From positions 1 through 64,000 of the forward strand of contig NZ_LROZ01000022.1 in the NCBI RefSeq assembly GCF_001549985.1: a stretch of 64,000 nucleotides of DNA. Direction: 5' to 3'. The first letter of the stretch is position 1. Each line of letters begins with the position of its first letter. The translations under genes were made by a program, and so were the position numbers. Under the pieces are notes generated by a model, which saw only the letters and a program-made list of their open reading frames with translations, ran no database searches and was not told the DNA's origin. The stretch comes from Myroides odoratus (GTDB lineage Bacteria; Bacteroidota; Bacteroidia; Flavobacteriales; Flavobacteriaceae). Positions 36,490-49,559 of this stretch are shown piece by piece.

Positions 36490-37818
36490 ATGGATAAAGA
36501 AAGAGTATTTGAAGGAGAATGGTTTCTACCTGGTAAAATAGAAGAAAAAGTTTTTGGTACTTTAAAATATGCGCCAGGTGAAAGGATTATTCTATCTATT
36601 TTTGAAGGATTTGAAAAAGAAATTTTTTTAGAGGACTTACATCTCATAAAGATTATTCACGGAAATACTATTGATGGAAAAAGAATAACCTTATACAATT
36701 GTATTGAAATACATAATCAAAATAATCTTGTACAAAAAACATATTCTAAATGGTCTGTAGATTACGTTTTTATTGGACATCAATTTGACAATGAAAGTGA
36801 TATTAAACCAAATAAAATAATGGCGTATTTTCCAATTTTAAATGAATGGATGTTTAAAAATGGATTTAAATTATCTAAAACAAGTTTGTATGATTTTGAT
36901 TTAAAATATAAATCACCTTTAGATATAAAACATACAATTAATGAGGATTTTAAAATAGAGTTTAATTTTAATATTGTACATACTGTAGGAGCTAGAAATA
37001 GCTTTAGATCACATCAAAAAAATATAATATCTATTACAACATCAAAGGATAAATCATTTTTTGAATTGGAGAGACAAATATATGTTTTTAGAGATTTAAT
37101 AACACTTTTTTCGTTCAGACCAGTTTATTTGAATAGTCTAAAAATAATCATTACAGATAATAAATATCCAGTAGAAGTATTGATTGGATTTAATAAAGTA
37201 AAAGAAGATAAAAGAGTTTTGTTTGTTACTTCATATCAAAATATCGAAGATGATTTTGGAGATATTCTAAGAAAATGGTATAAATTGGATAAAGAAGCTC
37301 CTGAAATACTTGGTCTTTTTTTGGAAGTTTTTTACAATGAAGGTAGAATCCTAGAAAATAAATTTCTAAACTTATTACAAGCAATGGAGTCATTTCATAG
37401 AAAATTCAGAAAAAATACCGTGTATGGAAAGGAAGAATTTAAAAATATGCTGGATGAAATAGTAGATTCTGTGCCACTTGAACATAAAAACTTTGTCAAG
37501 GAAAAACTAAATTTTGGAAATGAACCCAGTTTGCATTTTAGATTAGAGGAATTAATTTCAGAAGTTCCAAGTGATTTGTTAAATGTCTTAATCAATGACA
37601 AAGCGATATTTATAAAGCAGATAAAACAAACGAGGAATTATTTCACACATTATGATAATAAATTAAAAAACAAAGCATTAAAAGGCCAAAAACTATTTAA
37701 TACAATACAGAAAGGAAAAACTTTATTTTTAATTATTATTTTACAAGAAATAGGACTTAATAAACATCAAATACAAGATAGTATAAGTGTAATAAAAACA
37801 TTTATCAGCGACCATTGA
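36490..37818 (+). CDS. apeA: ApeA-type HEPN anti-phage protein
   Basis: A 442-residue protein. The N-terminus, GEWFLPGK (residues 9-16) and VFGTLKYAPGERIIL, matches what I know of the ApeA N-terminal domain (G-x-W-x-LP then GTL), followed by a long beta region. The C-terminal third is helical (FLNLLQAMESFHRKF) and ends with the HEPN RNase signature RNYFTHYD (R382, H387; R-x4-H). HEPN proteins of this family cleave RNA and act in abortive infection; ApeA was reported among defence systems found in prokaryotic defence islands. It is a single-gene system, cytoplasmic, AT-rich even for this genome, and lies among decayed mobile genes next to a tRNA gene. Its stop codon is inside its terminator hairpin. 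Confidence 0.85.
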   Translation: MDKERVFEGEWFLPGKIEEKVFGTLKYAPGERIILSIFEGFEKEIFLEDLHLIKIIHGNTIDGKRITLYNCIEIHNQNNLVQKTYSKWSVDYVFIGHQFDNESDIKPNKIMAYFPILNEWMFKNGFKLSKTSLYDFDLKYKSPLDIKHTINEDFKIEFNFNIVHTVGARNSFRSHQKNIISITTSKDKSFFELERQIYVFRDLITLFSFRPVYLNSLKIIITDNKYPVEVLIGFNKVKEDKRVLFVTSYQNIEDDFGDILRKWYKLDKEAPEILGLFLEVFYNEGRILENKFLNLLQAMESFHRKFRKNTVYGKEEFKNMLDEIVDSVPLEHKNFVKEKLNFGNEPSLHFRLEELISEVPSDLLNVLINDKAIFIKQIKQTRNYFTHYDNKLKNKALKGQKLFNTIQKGKTLFLIIILQEIGLNKHQIQDSISVIKTFISDH

Positions 37819-38219: not shown

Positions 38220-38466
38220 TTGTAACACTTTGCTAAGGTAGTATATACTTCCTATGATGTCAACGTTATTTCACTTTAACTTATCAAATAATGTTAATAA
38301 CTATTTTTGATATATCCATCAATTAAAATGGAAATCATAAAACAGCAACCATTGCTAAGATAATATCAATTTTCTAAAAAAAAGATTTCAACTTCTTTTA
38401 CATAAAAAATAAAAAAAGTAATTATGTTATTTTAAGTAAATTAGCTCCTTTATAAAAAATCGCAAT
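38220..38466. other. AT-rich leader of the coiled-coil operon
   Basis: A -7 word TATTTTTG lies at 38302-38309, with no TTG at the correct distance; the start would be 150 bp before the first gene. TTGCTAAG occurs twice (near 38230 and 38352). No open frame or RNA family is recognised. Confidence 0.45.
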
Positions 38467-38706
38467 ATGAGCATAATTAATGAAGCTAAGTCTTGTTTAA
38501 AAGATATCAAGAGTACTGAAAATCATATTTTAAAGGAAAATCCTAATAGAATAGAAAAAGAATGTGGTTATAAAGCAATTGAGATTGCATGGTCAAGATT
38601 CACTTCAAAACTTACTCAACAAGATATTGAGAAATATAAAATCAATATTAAAGAAAGAAAATTAGATAATATGTATTCTGTTTTAGAATCAATAATTGGA
38701 TATTAG
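38467..38706 (+). CDS. Unknown helical protein, 79 aa, first gene of a two-gene operon
   Basis: The start MSIINEAKSCLKDIKSTENH is followed by a helical, Lys/Glu-rich sequence (YKAIEIAWSRFTSKLTQQDI) with no signal peptide or membrane helix. I do not recognise it. It ends 2 bp before the next start, so the two genes are coupled. A small helical partner before a membrane-anchored coiled-coil protein suggests a regulator or adaptor (inference). Confidence 0.6.
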   Translation: MSIINEAKSCLKDIKSTENHILKENPNRIEKECGYKAIEIAWSRFTSKLTQQDIEKYKINIKERKLDNMYSVLESIIGY

Positions 38707-38708
38707 TT

Positions 38709-39812
38709 ATGGACGATGTAAAAAATAGTTTCAATGAAATAAAAGAATATACTATGGATAGACTCAAGATGCCTATTTTCTTTTATTATTTTGTCATACT
38801 ATTAGTTTGGAATTGGGATATTATCTTATTTATTTGGAAATCAAATTACCCTATTGAATATGTAATAAAGATTATCAAACAAAATGGTTTTGAACCAAAC
38901 AGATATTTATATCCATTAATAATAGCTGCTGCAGGTAATTTTGTTTTTCCTTTTATAATGCTTGTAATAGAATTATCGCTAAGTAAAATCACAAAAAAAA
39001 GAAATGAAACGGCTTTAGATATCGAGTTACAAAAAGCTGAAAAAGAATTTGAAGTTCAGAGAAAAAGAACTGGAGCCGTATCATTAAAAGATCTTCAAGA
39101 TCAGATTGATAGTTTAAATAAAGAAAAGGATGATTTGAGTGGACAAATTGTACTAAATAAAATGAGTTTAGAACAGGTAAATAAGAAGATACCCGAATTA
39201 GAAAAAAAATTACAAAAGGAACAAGCAGAAAAAGATAAATTTAAACAAGATGTAATTAAATTTACTAGACATGTGGATTATAATAATTTAGATGAAGAGA
39301 TAAATAGTTTTAAAACAGAAGTGAAAAGGTTTGAAGATAACTACATTAATATAATAGAAGTATTTGATTTTTTAAAAAAAATATTTAATGAAGAGAATAG
39401 CCCTTTAGCAATGAATATGAAATTAGACCCTTTGTTCTCTATTCTTGATGAATCAAATAAGTTCTTAAAAGAATATCAAAGTGGTCAAGTTACAAGGATA
39501 AAACTACTCCCTTATGGTATTAAATTTTTGTATTGGCTGTATGGTTATTCAGATGAGTATAAAGGTGTTTTAAATGTATATAATCATCTGAGAAATAAAG
39601 GCATTTTAAGTGATTTTATGCAAAAAGGATTAGATATGCTTAATAACAAAAACACACTTTATCAGGATAGTAATGTTAATCAGTTTTTACAACTAGGGTT
39701 GATAAATCACAAAGGTAATCTTATAAATTCTGATAGAAAACGTTATGAGTTAACTGATTTAGGTATGGCTATATTAAAATATGCTCAATTAAATTATAAT
39801 GAAAATTTATAA
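38709..39812 (+). CDS. Unknown membrane-anchored coiled-coil protein with a winged-helix-like end
   Basis: A 367-residue protein that I do not recognise. It has two membrane helices (about 22-43 and 68-91; FFYYFVILLVWNWDIILFIW and YPLIIAAAGNFVFPFIMLVI), a long coiled coil (about 102-215; LQDQIDSLNKEKDDL), and a C-terminal helical domain (about 270-367). The last 40 residues (QFLQLGLINHKGNLINSD, KRYELTDLGMAILKY) look like a winged helix: a LTDLGMAIL segment is common in such folds. Low G+C and its position among defence and mobile genes, next to a tRNA gene, suggest a defence-island cassette. No catalytic motif is visible. Confidence 0.75.
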   Translation: MDDVKNSFNEIKEYTMDRLKMPIFFYYFVILLVWNWDIILFIWKSNYPIEYVIKIIKQNGFEPNRYLYPLIIAAAGNFVFPFIMLVIELSLSKITKKRNETALDIELQKAEKEFEVQRKRTGAVSLKDLQDQIDSLNKEKDDLSGQIVLNKMSLEQVNKKIPELEKKLQKEQAEKDKFKQDVIKFTRHVDYNNLDEEINSFKTEVKRFEDNYINIIEVFDFLKKIFNEENSPLAMNMKLDPLFSILDESNKFLKEYQSGQVTRIKLLPYGIKFLYWLYGYSDEYKGVLNVYNHLRNKGILSDFMQKGLDMLNNKNTLYQDSNVNQFLQLGLINHKGNLINSDRKRYELTDLGMAILKYAQLNYNENL

Positions 39813-40272: not shown

Positions 40273-40479
40273 TTGACAATGATAAAAATAGCCTAGGATA
40301 TATAGGATGCGACCCTTCTCCTTCCTTCGTCAGGATGACAAAAATGGAAGAGATTTTTTTATTTTTCAGGGTGACATACGAACTGGAAAAGTCTACTTAA
40401 AAAAAATACTCTTTTTTATACTGTCCCCAACTTTTGCTCCTGATTCACTAAATCACATAAAATGGCTTATTTGTATAAA
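40273..40479. other. Non-coding stretch with short repeats at the island end
   Basis: It contains TCAGGATGACA (40330-40340) and TCAGGGTGACA (40366-40376), two near copies of a word often seen in dispersed intergenic repeats, and AT-rich filler. No gene is supported. Confidence 0.45.
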
Positions 40480-40509
40480 AAAAAACCTTATACAAATGTA
40501 TAAGGTTTT
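40480..40509 (-). terminator. Terminator of tRNA-Arg
   Basis: AAAACCTTATAC-AAAT-GTATAAGGTTTT; on the minus strand the hairpin is followed by a long T run. Confidence 0.92.
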
Positions 40510-40516
40510 CGTTTTG

Positions 40517-40590
40517 TGATCCAGTCAGGATTCGAACCTGAGACCTACTGCTTAGAAGGCAGTTGCTCTATCCAGCTGAGCTACTGGACC
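40517..40590 (-). tRNA. tRNA-Arg (anticodon TCT)
   Basis: A 74-nt cloverleaf on the minus strand. The acceptor GGTCCAG pairs with CTGGATC, the anticodon loop CTTCTAA gives UCU (reads AGA), the D-arm is AGCTCAGCTGGATAGAGCA and the T-loop is GGTTCGAATCC. Its 3' end faces the accessory region, the side where integrases insert elements. I find no second copy of the 3' end nearby, so an attachment site is not shown. Confidence 0.97.
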
Positions 40591-40789: not shown

Positions 40790-42661
40790 TTAGCGTTCAT
40801 ACTGACAACAACCGTGTAAACTGTTGTAGGTTTTGTCTTGGGCTTGATCAAAAGCAGTATCGTGTCCTGCTGCTGCAATGACTTTACTAACCTTCTTTTC
40901 ATCTGTTTTAGCCTTGTCAAAGTTGAGGTGTAATACCTTTGCATTGACATCCCAAGTAGCTGTAGAAACACCAGCTACACTTTTAGCTGCTGTTTCAATG
41001 CGCTCTTTACACATAGCACAGTTTCCTTTCACTTTTAGCATGGCATGTCCTTGATGCCCTTCTTTTGGCATTGGCTGAGCAGGTGTTGCTTGATGTTGAC
41101 CGTGTTTGGCTTGATCTCTGCTATACAAACAACAAGATGGCAAGGCATCATAGGCTTTATCTGACGCTTTATCCCATTCAGTATCATGACCTGCAAGAGC
41201 AATGGCTTGACTTACTTTGCGTTGATCTGTTTTAGTCTTATCATAGTTGAGATGTAGTAGTTGGTCTTTGGAGTTCCAAGTTGCACGTACTACACCAGCT
41301 ACGCTTTTTGCTGCTTTTTCAATTCTCGCTTTACACATATCACAATTACCTGAAACAGTAAACATCGCATGTCCTTCATTGGCTGCAGCTGTAATAGTAG
41401 GTGTATCGTTGTTCATCATGCTTGGTTTTCCTTCCAATTGCGCACTAGAATCAACGGTAAATACTCCTCTCGTTACAATTTCTTCTCCATCTTGTAAGCC
41501 TGAAGTTACTACGTAATTATCCCCTAAAGAGGGCCCTAAAACAATTTCTCTCATTTTGAATGCGGGTGTATCAGTATGCGGTTGTTTTACATAAATAACA
41601 GAACGTTTTCCCGTCCACAATACCGCTGATTTTGGAATAACCAATTGATTGTTGTGCTCGCGAATTGGCGCTTGAACCGTTGCTGTAGCATACATTTCCG
41701 GTTTTAAAGCTTGATCCTTATTATCCGTTTCTACGCGAATTTTTGCTGTACGTGAAGTTGCATCAATAATAGGATTGATGAATGAAATCTTTCCGCGGTA
41801 TATTTTTCCAGGAATACTGGGAAGTGTATATTCCAACATATCTCCCTCTTTTAAGAAAGGTAAATCAGCCTCATACGCCTCAAAAACGGCCCAAAGCTTA
41901 GTCATATTAGAGATGCTATATAAGACAGATCCCTGATTGATGTAATCACCTTGATTGACATTTTTAGCTGTTACAATACCACTAGTATTGGCCGTTATAC
42001 TTACATAAGGTGAAACTTTTCCCGTTGAAAGGATTTTGTTGATTTGAGCATCTGACATTTTCCACAATCTCAATTTTTCTTTGGCAGCATCGAGTAATAA
42101 AGGCTGGAAATCGATTAATTTCTTCGCTTCTAACAGCTCTTGCTGTGCATTTAATAAATCGGGTGAATAGATAGTTGCAATGAGCTGTCCTTGTTTAACG
42201 GATTCACCTGTAAAATTAATAAATAATTTTTCGATGCGCCCATTGACGTGTGAGGTTTGGGATTGCTGTAAACGCTCATCTACCTGAATAGTTCCATATA
42301 GTTGCAGATCTTTGACTGCATCCTGACGACCCACTACTGTAGTTTGAATATTCGCTAAAGCAACGGCTTCTTTTGACATTTGGATGGCGTCATCATCAAT
42401 TGCATCATCTCCGCCACCTGCGGATTTTAGCGGAATTAAATCCATGGCACATAAAGGACATTTTCCAGGTTTGTCCATTTTGATTTGTGGGTGCATGGAA
42501 CAAGTCCAAACTACTGCAGCCTCTTCTGTTGGTGCAGGTTCTCCATTGTGTTCATGTGTAGCTGATCCTCCAAAAACCAACCAGCCCAAAAGAAGTCCAA
42601 CTAGTAAAATAGCTCCGTATTTTACTGCATTATTTTTAAATATATCGTTTAATTTACTCAT
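40790..42661 (-). CDS. cusB: Copper/silver RND efflux adaptor with two C-terminal HMA domains
   Basis: This is the membrane-fusion subunit linking the CusA pump to the outer-membrane channel. I use the ATG at 42661 (MSKLNDIFKNNAVKYG, 623 residues); an upstream in-frame ATG lies inside the previous gene. Order: anchor helix (16-32), a heavy-metal-binding domain (52-78; C54, H57, C68 and C71 in WTCSMHPQ and CPLCAMDLIPL), the adaptor barrel-lipoyl region (about 95-400), then two HMA domains beginning near residues 430 and 538, each with GNC-x-MCK and a following CC pair (SCCLY, GCCQY). The tandem HMA tail is unusual and may deliver Cu(I) to the pump. It is last in the operon. Confidence 0.93.
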   Translation of the reverse strand: MSKLNDIFKNNAVKYGAILLVGLLLGWLVFGGSATHEHNGEPAPTEEAAVVWTCSMHPQIKMDKPGKCPLCAMDLIPLKSAGGGDDAIDDDAIQMSKEAVALANIQTTVVGRQDAVKDLQLYGTIQVDERLQQSQTSHVNGRIEKLFINFTGESVKQGQLIATIYSPDLLNAQQELLEAKKLIDFQPLLLDAAKEKLRLWKMSDAQINKILSTGKVSPYVSITANTSGIVTAKNVNQGDYINQGSVLYSISNMTKLWAVFEAYEADLPFLKEGDMLEYTLPSIPGKIYRGKISFINPIIDATSRTAKIRVETDNKDQALKPEMYATATVQAPIREHNNQLVIPKSAVLWTGKRSVIYVKQPHTDTPAFKMREIVLGPSLGDNYVVTSGLQDGEEIVTRGVFTVDSSAQLEGKPSMMNNDTPTITAAANEGHAMFTVSGNCDMCKARIEKAAKSVAGVVRATWNSKDQLLHLNYDKTKTDQRKVSQAIALAGHDTEWDKASDKAYDALPSCCLYSRDQAKHGQHQATPAQPMPKEGHQGHAMLKVKGNCAMCKERIETAAKSVAGVSTATWDVNAKVLHLNFDKAKTDEKKVSKVIAAAGHDTAFDQAQDKTYNSLHGCCQYER

Positions 42662-42671
42662 GGTTTCTGTA

Positions 42672-44135
42672 TTATAAATCGTTAGGAGTAGCCGTGATAT
42701 TTTCAATTGAGGCTACTAGCGTATTGTAATTAGCGATGGCTTCTGCTTTTTTAAGCTGATAATCCAATAATTGGCGCTGTACTTGAATAACATTCGTTAA
42801 GTCGCTTTTTCCCGTTACAAACTCCTTGACAATTAGGTTAAACGTCGTTTCTGCTAAGGTGGTTTGCTTTTCTAACAAAGCAATGGTACGTTCTGTATCT
42901 TCCACTTGGTTTTTAAAGCTGTAATACGAGGCAAGTAAAGTATTGTAGGTGTCTTTGTACTTTTCCTCACTGGATTTCCACCATTTTTTACCTTCTTCTT
43001 GTTGGGCCTTATATTTTTTTCTGAATATAGGGAGAGACACGGTAACCATCGGCATAATCATATCTTTTCCATTCATATCACCCATGGCGAGCATAGGGTC
43101 ATTGGTTTTGCCAATAATCATGTATTGGACCCCAAATCCTACCATGGGATAGCTCATTTTTTTATCCATTGCCGATTTTGCCTGATAGGCTAAACCTTCT
43201 TCTGTTAGCATAGCTAACATAGGGTTGTTGGATTCAATTAGGGTTTGCGCTTCTTCATCTGTGAGGAAAAAGGGTACTTTCTCAATGGCATGGGGTACAG
43301 TAACAGCTGCTTGGATTTCTTGATCAAGTAGGGCGTTGAATTTTACCTTTTCTGCTTTGATTTGTGCTTGTAAACTTTCGATGGTATTTTCAATTTCAAT
43401 GGTTTCCAATCGGATGCGCAATACATCGGACATTCCAGAACCACTACCACCACCGCTCATACCCCCCATAGCGCTACTGCTAGAGGAAGAGGAGGTAGAT
43501 GTAGATATATTAGCCGTTGCTGTTGCACCACCACCCATATTCATGCCGCCCATACCACCACTGGTATTCGTTGTGGTAGATGCAACAGGAGTGCTCGAAG
43601 CCATGCTGTTAGAGGCAGTAGCTCCAGAAGGAGAAGAGAATTTTTTGATGGCCAATTGCTCTAATTGTTCCAAAAGATCTTTATTTTGTTTGGCATTACT
43701 TACTTGTTGCTGTAGCTTTTGTAGGATATACCATTGGGTATTCACTTGTAGAATAACCATTTCTCTTGCTTCTCTATATTGTTGCATCTGCATGCTAGCC
43801 ATGTGATTGGCTTCCTTTTTGGCGGATTTTTTTGTACCAAACCACGGGAGCATCTGCATTAATGTAATATCTCCAATTTGTCTTCCTCCAACAATATCCA
43901 TGGGTTTGGTATAGAAGCCCATGGATAGTTCAGGGTCCTCAAATGCACCAGCTTGTGGAATTTTATCCAGAAAGGCTTCATAAGCTAATCGCTGCGATTT
44001 TAGTCCAGGATTATTCTCTAGTGCCAATTGGGTATAGTAGGCCAATGAATCAATCTTATTTTCTTGTGCCCACATCGTTGTCATAGGTGTAAATAGCCCC
44101 AAGACAACAAGAAGTATAGCATATATCTTATTCAT
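42672..44135 (-). CDS. cusC: TolC-family outer-membrane channel with a Met-rich insert (CusC-like)
   Basis: The outer-membrane efflux protein of the same operon. I start it at 44135 (MNKIYAILLVVLGLF), which gives a signal peptide ending at WAQ and an 8-bp overlap with the end of cusA; a further ATG at 44153 is possible. The 487-residue mature-type protein has the TolC repeat (NNPGLKSQR near the start, TGKSDLTNVIQVQRQLLDYQ near the end). Between helices, residues 167-237 form a low-complexity stretch of Ser, Gly, Thr and Met (GGMGGMNMGGG, SAMGGMSGGG) that ordinary TolC proteins lack. Methionine clusters bind Cu(I)/Ag(I), so a metal-binding loop is likely (inference). Confidence 0.88.
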   Translation of the reverse strand: MNKIYAILLVVLGLFTPMTTMWAQENKIDSLAYYTQLALENNPGLKSQRLAYEAFLDKIPQAGAFEDPELSMGFYTKPMDIVGGRQIGDITLMQMLPWFGTKKSAKKEANHMASMQMQQYREAREMVILQVNTQWYILQKLQQQVSNAKQNKDLLEQLEQLAIKKFSSPSGATASNSMASSTPVASTTTNTSGGMGGMNMGGGATATANISTSTSSSSSSSAMGGMSGGGSGSGMSDVLRIRLETIEIENTIESLQAQIKAEKVKFNALLDQEIQAAVTVPHAIEKVPFFLTDEEAQTLIESNNPMLAMLTEEGLAYQAKSAMDKKMSYPMVGFGVQYMIIGKTNDPMLAMGDMNGKDMIMPMVTVSLPIFRKKYKAQQEEGKKWWKSSEEKYKDTYNTLLASYYSFKNQVEDTERTIALLEKQTTLAETTFNLIVKEFVTGKSDLTNVIQVQRQLLDYQLKKAEAIANYNTLVASIENITATPNDL

Positions 44136-48845: not shown

Positions 48846-49559
48846 ATGAAAGAAAGTATTTATAGTGAAGCCTATATTAAAGGTCTTTTTAATCGAATGA
48901 GTAGTTCATATGAAAGAGTAAATTATTTATCCTCTTTTGGTTTTTCTCTTCGTTGGAGAAAGCAGTTTTTACGGCCTATGGAAATTTCATCAACTGCTCC
49001 AGTTCAGATTATTGATCTAATGACAGGTATGGGAGAAACTTGGGGCGCTATTCATCAGGCGTTTCCTAAGGCTAAACTCACGGCTTTAGATTTTTCAGAG
49101 GGTATGTTGATTTATGCCCAAAATAAAAATAAAAAGAAATTTAATGGACGAGTTGAAGTAACATTGCAAAATGTATTACATAATGATCTACCTTCTGATT
49201 TTTATGATGGTGTAACTTGTGCTTTTGGATTAAAAACATTAAATCCAGAGCAGGTAGAAATTTTAGCTCAACAAGTAAAAAGAATCTTGAAACCAGGAGG
49301 GCAATTTTCATTCATTGAGGTTTCTGAACCTACTAATATTGTTTTGAAATTATTATATTCTTTTTACCTCAGTACAATCATTCCTTTATTGGGAAAAATG
49401 TTATTCGGTGGGATAAGAGAGTATAAAATGCTTTGGGAATATACTCATCGATTTAAAAATGCAAAAGAAGTTGAGACTATTTTTCAATCAACAGGTTTAA
49501 CAACGAAGTATCAAACGTATTTTTTTGGTTGTGCAACAGGAGTATATGGTAAAAAATAA
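48846..49559 (+). CDS. UbiE/MenG-like class I methyltransferase
   Basis: A 237-residue SAM-dependent methyltransferase. Motif I is IIDLMTGMGETWG, with acidic motif II LTALDFSEGML and post-I VTCAFGLKTLNPEQ, a pattern close to UbiE/MenG (which methylate ubiquinone or menaquinone precursors). The N-terminal YERVNYLSSFGFSLRWRKQF also fits that group. The family assignment is good; the substrate here is not certain, since a housekeeping menG may lie elsewhere. TATTTTTG at 48806-48813 is a likely -7 element. The gene diverges from the cus operon. Confidence 0.85.
   Translation: MKESIYSEAYIKGLFNRMSSSYERVNYLSSFGFSLRWRKQFLRPMEISSTAPVQIIDLMTGMGETWGAIHQAFPKAKLTALDFSEGMLIYAQNKNKKKFNGRVEVTLQNVLHNDLPSDFYDGVTCAFGLKTLNPEQVEILAQQVKRILKPGGQFSFIEVSEPTNIVLKLLYSFYLSTIIPLLGKMLFGGIREYKMLWEYTHRFKNAKEVETIFQSTGLTTKYQTYFFGCATGVYGKK

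Follow-up and report, generated by a model that had tools for sequence, protein, structure and literature searches.

What is the role of the two closely spaced genes at positions 38467-39812 of a 64,000-nucleotide stretch of Myroides odoratus DNA (the window, by which that whole stretch is meant)? The original prediction had described a small protein followed by a larger one with two membrane helices, a long coiled coil and a winged-helix-like end, and had proposed them as a new defence cassette of no known family inside a defence island. Both open reading frames have been found as described, on the + strand and 2 bp apart, and are called gpA and gpB in the following list of features.

36490-37818, + strand: ApeA-type protein with HEPN domain (PF18862, PF18739; PADLOC PDC-S58)
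38467-38706, + strand: gpA, open reading frame of 79 aa, no relatives, possible partner of gpB
38709-39812, + strand: gpB, open reading frame of 367 aa, member of the phrog_13369/phrog_4780 family
40516-40590, - strand: tRNA-Arg (TCT), downstream of the islet

The locus and its DNA setting

The ApeA-type protein has been matched in Pfam (PF18862, E 8.2e-41; PF18739, E 2.9e-32) as well as in PADLOC (PDC-S58, E 1.7e-98), and its gene, at the end of which a terminator-like site has been seen, is separated by 648 bp from the gpA-gpB pair. The GC content of the 36-40 kb region is about 25% (0.247-0.269 per kb), compared with 0.31 just before and 0.33-0.40 just after, and this drop suggests imported DNA. 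The predicted defence-island setting has thus been upheld in so far as low-GC, foreign-looking DNA lies beside a defence gene. However, the ApeA-type HEPN protein is the one clear defence gene product among the 20 window proteins scanned with PADLOC (gpA and gpB included); for the product of 48846-49556, mad2 has been the sole PADLOC match, at 2.8e-11. Because only one clear defence gene has been found, "defence island" is too strong, and the setting is better described as a small, low-GC defence islet near a tRNA-Arg gene.

The gpB copy in the window lies outside any recognisable prophage. Exact words of 12 and 14 revealed no direct copy of the tRNA-Arg end in the window, and no convincing att pair has been found among the 20 largest repeat families listed. 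The repeat at 40305-40380 has been considered as a boundary mark of an island and rejected, as it belongs to a dispersed REP-like repeat of which the genome contains at least 8 other copies, several of them clustered on contig C34; an empty-site search with the downstream flank returned mostly tRNA matches and has been dropped. Further repeats have been recorded around the locus: the tRNA-Arg gene with its 3' flank (40302-40590) has an 82% copy at C8:33195-33477, a similar repeat stands on contig C10 beside a run of tRNA-like copies, and a 75-bp stretch upstream of gpA (38231-38305) is repeated (83%) at C13:52463-52537. The efflux adaptor-like gene at 40790-42706 contains a duplicated stretch (40827-41379, spacing 324 bp), which likely represents two copies of a metal-binding domain, the domain having been recognised by reading.

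gpB and its phage-borne family

The two membrane helices foreseen for gpB have been recovered by hydropathy, in which the 19-residue windows of two hydrophobic segments peak at residues 23-42 and 69-87, and, together with the long coiled coil, in an AlphaFold2 model obtained from 31 sequences (mean pLDDT 75; pTM 0.34, which is low). In the model, a helix at 2-19 is followed by a first membrane helix that is broken at N35-W36 (22-34/36-44), a helix at 49-60, and a second membrane helix continuing into the coiled coil (63-121, 126-226), behind which a helical stretch, partly with pLDDT <50, leads to a C-terminal helix-turn-helix and a beta hairpin. Three parts of the protein have been delimited.

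38709-39071, + strand: membrane module and start of the coiled coil, residues 1-121 (conservation; R18, P22, N35, W36, P69, P81)
39387-39560, + strand: insert, residues 227-284 (mean occupancy 0.09 over 74 members; model confidence partly low)
39561-39809, + strand: winged-helix domain, residues 285-367 (from the model)

At the level of the model, the predicted winged-helix-like end has been borne out: the expected layout (helix-turn-helix, then beta hairpin and C-terminal helix) is present, and residues 285-367 align with winged-helix chains (Rio2 N-domain, TubR, MarR/MexR) at Z 7.0-8.4 and rmsd 2.0-4.8 Å among the matches listed by VIA-align, whose notes grade such Z values as middling. A Foldseek search of gpB against the PDB gave no match at E 0.001 or better, the winged-helix matches lying at E >0.1, and the likeness appears to be one of topology that is not decisive. 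Nine K/R have been counted in residues 93-122 behind the second helix and two in the loop 45-64, and the N-terminal tail (1-21) holds four K/R and five D/E; because of this charge distribution around the helices, the coiled coil would be placed in the cytoplasm.

The assumption that gpB has no known family has had to be abandoned. Its residues 2-217, covering the membrane module and the coiled coil, match phrog_13369 (E 5.1e-8) and phrog_4780 (E 1.5e-7), both annotated as of unknown function, relatives also match phrog_35327, 22645 and 8191, and a second family copy with 29% identity to gpB is encoded in the same genome at C43:178668. The model of this copy (mean pLDDT 82; pTM 0.37, again low) has the same layout as gpB with a beta hairpin and helix at the C-terminal end, and Foldseek found no match for it among viral models at E 0.001. 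For residues 1-110, a range chosen to exclude coiled-coil similarity, a profile has been derived from the other 73 members with gpB left out; gpB scored 71.1 bits, compared with 10.8 for the best of 5000 shuffles and 7.1 for the best real non-member. On sequence grounds, gpB is placed in a widespread family through the membrane module itself, and it is a divergent member of that family: gpB alone as query retrieved one phage record at E 2e-3 and nothing in the GTDB contigs. A confident match to a housekeeping family, which would have spoken against the proposal, has been found in none of Pfam, NCBIfam, PADLOC, the PDB sequences and Foldseek; the first three returned weak coiled-coil matches, and the PDB sequences coiled coils together with weak winged-helix proteins.

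Conservation has been counted over 74 unique members (84 collected) and is high at P22 (95%), N35 (91%) and W36 (95%) as well as at G352 of the winged helix (88%). By hydropathy, 44 of these members have exactly two N-terminal segments and none later; 19 have one segment, 9 have three, and 2 show other patterns. The winged-helix tail motif occurs in 49 of the 74, yet in one of the eight members that come from phage and plasmid records. Residues 227-284 are hardly seen elsewhere and, because of the mean occupancy listed above, are regarded as an insert of the gpB form. The family is already present in PHROGs without a function, and the form in the window is a derived variant: it has the membrane module and the coiled coil in common with the two PHROG families, and it differs from them by the helical insert, by the gpA gene in front, and by its place outside a recognisable prophage. 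None of the titles and abstract openings listed in searches of open-licence literature for the family names it, and we have found no functional test of any member.

Searches by profiles or with gpB itself have detected members in 64 of 398 genomes of the same genus, in 16 of 395 of the order and in 5 of 199 of the taxonomic family (the own genome included in each case), a distribution that is patchy. With a closer profile, 10 loci have been obtained from GTDB contigs, namely two from Chryseobacterium and one each from Capnocytophaga, Arenibacter, Formosa, Labilibaculum, Flavobacterium, a Cytophagales MAG, a Lysobacter MAG and Vibrio. Carriage by phages has been observed repeatedly. A member is present on eleven distinct IMG/VR contigs, one of which has the gene at two positions (L041, L044), and the second copy of the Myroides genome is present on an IMG/VR viral contig at 100% identity. 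The gene adjoins the terminase genes on the opposite strand in six records, namely Escherichia phage EC.W1-9, Klebsiella phage BUCT711, a 41-kb plasmid record of E. coli that contains phage genes, and three E. coli prophages. In five of them a portal gene (annotated as portal, connector or tail protein) has been found on the other side, where the plasmid record ends. In KO-TP1, a member lies antisense between replication and nin-type genes. Two filamentous phages of Vibrio also have a member, as does a Klebsiella plasmid that carries phage tail genes, and on an E. coli plasmid that carries phage genes for tail and baseplate a member lies beside HigBA; plasmids with phage genes are what we call phage-plasmids here. 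Among 5426 complete E. coli genomes, the gene of locus L013 has been found in 55 (36 with coverage of at least 80%), 57 of its 59 places being chromosomal, and that of L012 in 51, all on plasmids.

Several side observations belong to this survey. A tblastn search with one relative returned 38 plasmid records at E 0.01, including 8 from Leptospira. Different members form tandem pairs, with a gap of 12-16 bp in L116, L125 and L043 and of 95 bp in L048; L043 and L048 are viral contigs. A related 108-aa protein, a recurring small partner that is unlike gpA, is encoded 11 bp downstream of the member in L127 and L130 and is followed in L127 by a second member, and in L069 (8512-9902) a member stands after a two-gene unit which by reading resembles an HNH nuclease and a HIT-domain protein. 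In the three E. coli prophages (L232, L233, L234), a tRNA-Arg gene adjoins the family gene at about 2702-2779; that gpB shares this vicinity is perhaps coincidence.

Close relatives have been compared along their length. L013 and L232, which occupy the same E. coli prophage site, share 118 of the first 120 aligned residues (98%) and, in the last four blocks, 15 of 92. L013 and L014 form a reverse mosaic: at the N-terminus 14 of 22 residues are identical, and in a coiled-coil block 29 of 30. Over 110 member pairs with an N-terminal identity of at least 50%, which are non-independent, the median identity is 0.56 at the N-terminus and 0.25 in the last 90 residues, shuffled ends giving 0.23; the C-terminal value does not exceed 0.30 in 80 of the 110 pairs and is higher than the N-terminal one in a single pair. 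For the 15 pairs with an N-terminal identity of at least 0.7, the median C-terminal identity is 0.48. Judged from these alignments, the C-terminal sequences differ almost completely between close relatives and the membrane module stays constant. Such a pattern would fit exchangeable recognition, and it could instead reflect relaxed constraint on the C-terminus rather than specificity.

Neighbours of gpB and of its relatives

Against this family background, gpA is the weak part of the pair. Pfam, PADLOC, NCBIfam and PHROGs gave no significant family for it, viral contigs and plasmids yielded no relative, and 299 same-family genomes yielded no convincing one, the best outside match there having E 0.0019; the weak matches there fall by reading in Crp-like and other proteins, the one at E 0.0019 being Crp-like. 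Among the 1693 proteins of the fetched loci (gpA included), the best other match is a 107-aa open reading frame (L042 3319-3642, E 0.0068), which lies on a viral contig carrying a family member; L045 has a weaker gpA match at a similar place. When the 890-bp stretch was shuffled 2000 times with dinucleotides kept, a + strand open reading frame of at least 79 aa arose in 14 of the shuffles, and codon usage does not discriminate. As chance frames occur at this rate, codon usage is silent and a convincing homologue is lacking, gpA is less certain as a real gene than gpB. In 146 small open reading frames up to 500 bp upstream of 44 members, no gpA match has been detected (best E 0.2), and for 22 of the 44 members a gene on the same strand lies no more than 50 bp away on at least one side (tandem members included), the other 22 having none. 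The family consequently does not need a gpA-type partner, and gpA is probably a lineage-specific partner of gpB that stands outside any family-wide cassette. Of the new defence cassette originally proposed, the two-gene arrangement has therefore not stood as a general system; what has stood is a family whose members have been found in phages, in prophages and on plasmids with phage genes, some of them beside defence genes.

The association with defence genes has been examined at 40 same-genus member loci and 40 controls placed 50 kb away on the same contigs, a member being present in all 40 cases and in none of the controls. Up to three genes of at least 70 aa on each side (233 case and 226 control proteins) have been scanned with PADLOC. 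Because in two of the four neighbour sets the PADLOC families were those among the matches listed (25 families), the case loci have been classified by reading proteins of at least 160 aa, by Pfam on 10 case proteins, 8 of which matched a family, and by three mapped PADLOC models; control proteins have been read for L176-L195 only and from 230 aa upwards, and the Pfam run included none of them. Named defence or conflict genes have been counted at the following seven loci.

L118: AbiH and PDC-M65B near the member
L129: PDC-M43B and a DUF4365 protein near the member
L141 (4646-6437): TIR-domain gene ending 19 bp upstream of the member, same strand
L142: HD-CE/HATPase and KAP NTPase near the member
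L144: Schlafen AlbA_2 near the member
L151 (4539-8128): member within a type I restriction operon, flanked by HsdS and the GmrSD nuclease gene
L153: Z1 near the member

In L151, GmrSD has been identified by Pfam and HsdM, HsdS and HsdR by reading, type I PADLOC models being listed for that locus set, and the member itself is short and weak (205 aa, 38.9 bits). The TIR gene and the member in L141 possibly form a two-gene TIR system. The single control counted is a type II restriction enzyme in L185. Left uncounted have been two unmapped mad3 matches in controls (E 9.9e-33 and 9.6e-98), three control proteins read as housekeeping (a cysteine desulfurase in L177, UvrD in L190 and a helicase-like protein in L182), and, on the case side, neighbours of the helicase, ThiF-like and Fic-like kinds. 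The comparison of 7 of 40 loci with 1 of 40 controls gives a one-sided Fisher p of 0.028, and 6 against 1 with p 0.054 when the AlbA_2 locus is left out. The predicted enrichment near defence genes has thus been found in direction, but it is suggestive only, because the classification has been made by hand, after the fact and more thoroughly for the cases; in 33 of the 40 case loci, no named defence gene has been seen within three genes on each side.

Among known systems, membrane superinfection-exclusion proteins of temperate phages such as SieA of P22 and gp15 of HK97 are similar in setting: they are accessory membrane-protein genes of temperate phages, as are the relatives of gpB, although gpB itself is not in a recognised prophage. 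The likeness is one of functional class, and we know of no long coiled coil with a winged-helix tip in SieA or gp15. Zorya and Kiwa offer architectural parallels. In ZorA, a membrane anchor is joined to a long coiled coil, and in KwaA/KwaB to DNA recognition at the membrane; gpB has an anchor with a long coiled coil like the former and putative DNA binding like the latter, and PADLOC gave no match to ZorA, ZorB, KwaA or KwaB in gpB or the scanned neighbours. The two-helix SLATT effectors, which are partners of nucleotide-signalling systems, resemble gpB in having two membrane helices in a conflict-system setting. In Pfam, gpB matched no SLATT family at E up to 1, a search in which short divergent domains can be missed, and no nucleotide-signalling system has been seen at the gpA-gpB locus.

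Possible roles of gpB

The explanation that we favour, and to which we give an evenly balanced chance of being right, is that gpB, as a member of a phage-borne family, would be anchored in the membrane and act there against phages, either in superinfection exclusion or in defence. Both ends of the protein would then be cytoplasmic, the coiled coil would assemble oligomers, and the variable tip would recognise a component of an incoming phage (DNA or protein) at the inner membrane. As a result, genome entry or replication might be blocked at the membrane, or the membrane module might be triggered and the membrane changed, with gpA most likely regulating or restraining gpB. Permeabilisation of the membrane by gpB is a guess with which the conserved membrane module fits.

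That last outcome is central to an abortive-infection pair, in which gpA would hold a growth-arresting gpB inactive until infection released it and the two-helix module depolarised the membrane. The membrane module as the conserved part with its helix break at N35-W36 and its prolines P69 and P81, the spacing of the two genes and the ApeA-type HEPN neighbour all speak for it. We nevertheless consider it unlikely, as no gpA-like gene has been found in front of the 44 other members and half of these stand without a close same-strand neighbour. An element-borne function without any anti-phage role would be that of a membrane-tethered DNA-binding protein, whose winged helix sits on the DNA of a mobile element for regulation, maintenance or partition and whose anchor holds it at the membrane. 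The TubR- and MarR-like alignments of the modelled winged helix (Z 7-8.4) would be in line with this, as is the occurrence of the family in prophages and on plasmids with phage genes, but members also sit at chromosomal places and within a restriction operon, the winged-helix tail motif is missing in 7 of 8 phage and plasmid members checked, and C-termini differ at one and the same prophage site, which leaves this role quite doubtful. Finally, many phages carry the family, as do filamentous phages and plasmids with phage genes, which could point to a counter-defence or host-takeover factor that serves the element in its own infection cycle. The antisense position in temperate phages, however, suggests expression in the lysogen, and chromosomal copies lie beside defence genes, so that we regard such a factor as improbable.

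The favoured anti-phage reading of gpB can be extended to the whole family, in a form that we put forward tentatively and with somewhat less than even confidence. Across phyla, a phage-carried immunity family would join a constant inner-membrane module of two helices to a C-terminal recognition domain that can be exchanged, and prophages, filamentous phages, phage-plasmids and chromosomal islets would swap specificity by recombination with one membrane mechanism kept; the form in the window would be a derived one to which an insert and a partner gene have been added. This family-wide constant and variable design is more interesting than the form in the window. If the defence reading is true, genes of the family are missed by present defence annotation, since PADLOC gave no good match for the 11 members scanned (weak matches only, best E 4e-5). 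The family spans Flavobacteriia, enterobacterial prophages, Vibrio filamentous phages and plasmids with phage genes, and its natural alleles, which join the same membrane module to different tips, make both the target of the tip and the role of the membrane part directly testable in laboratory E. coli.
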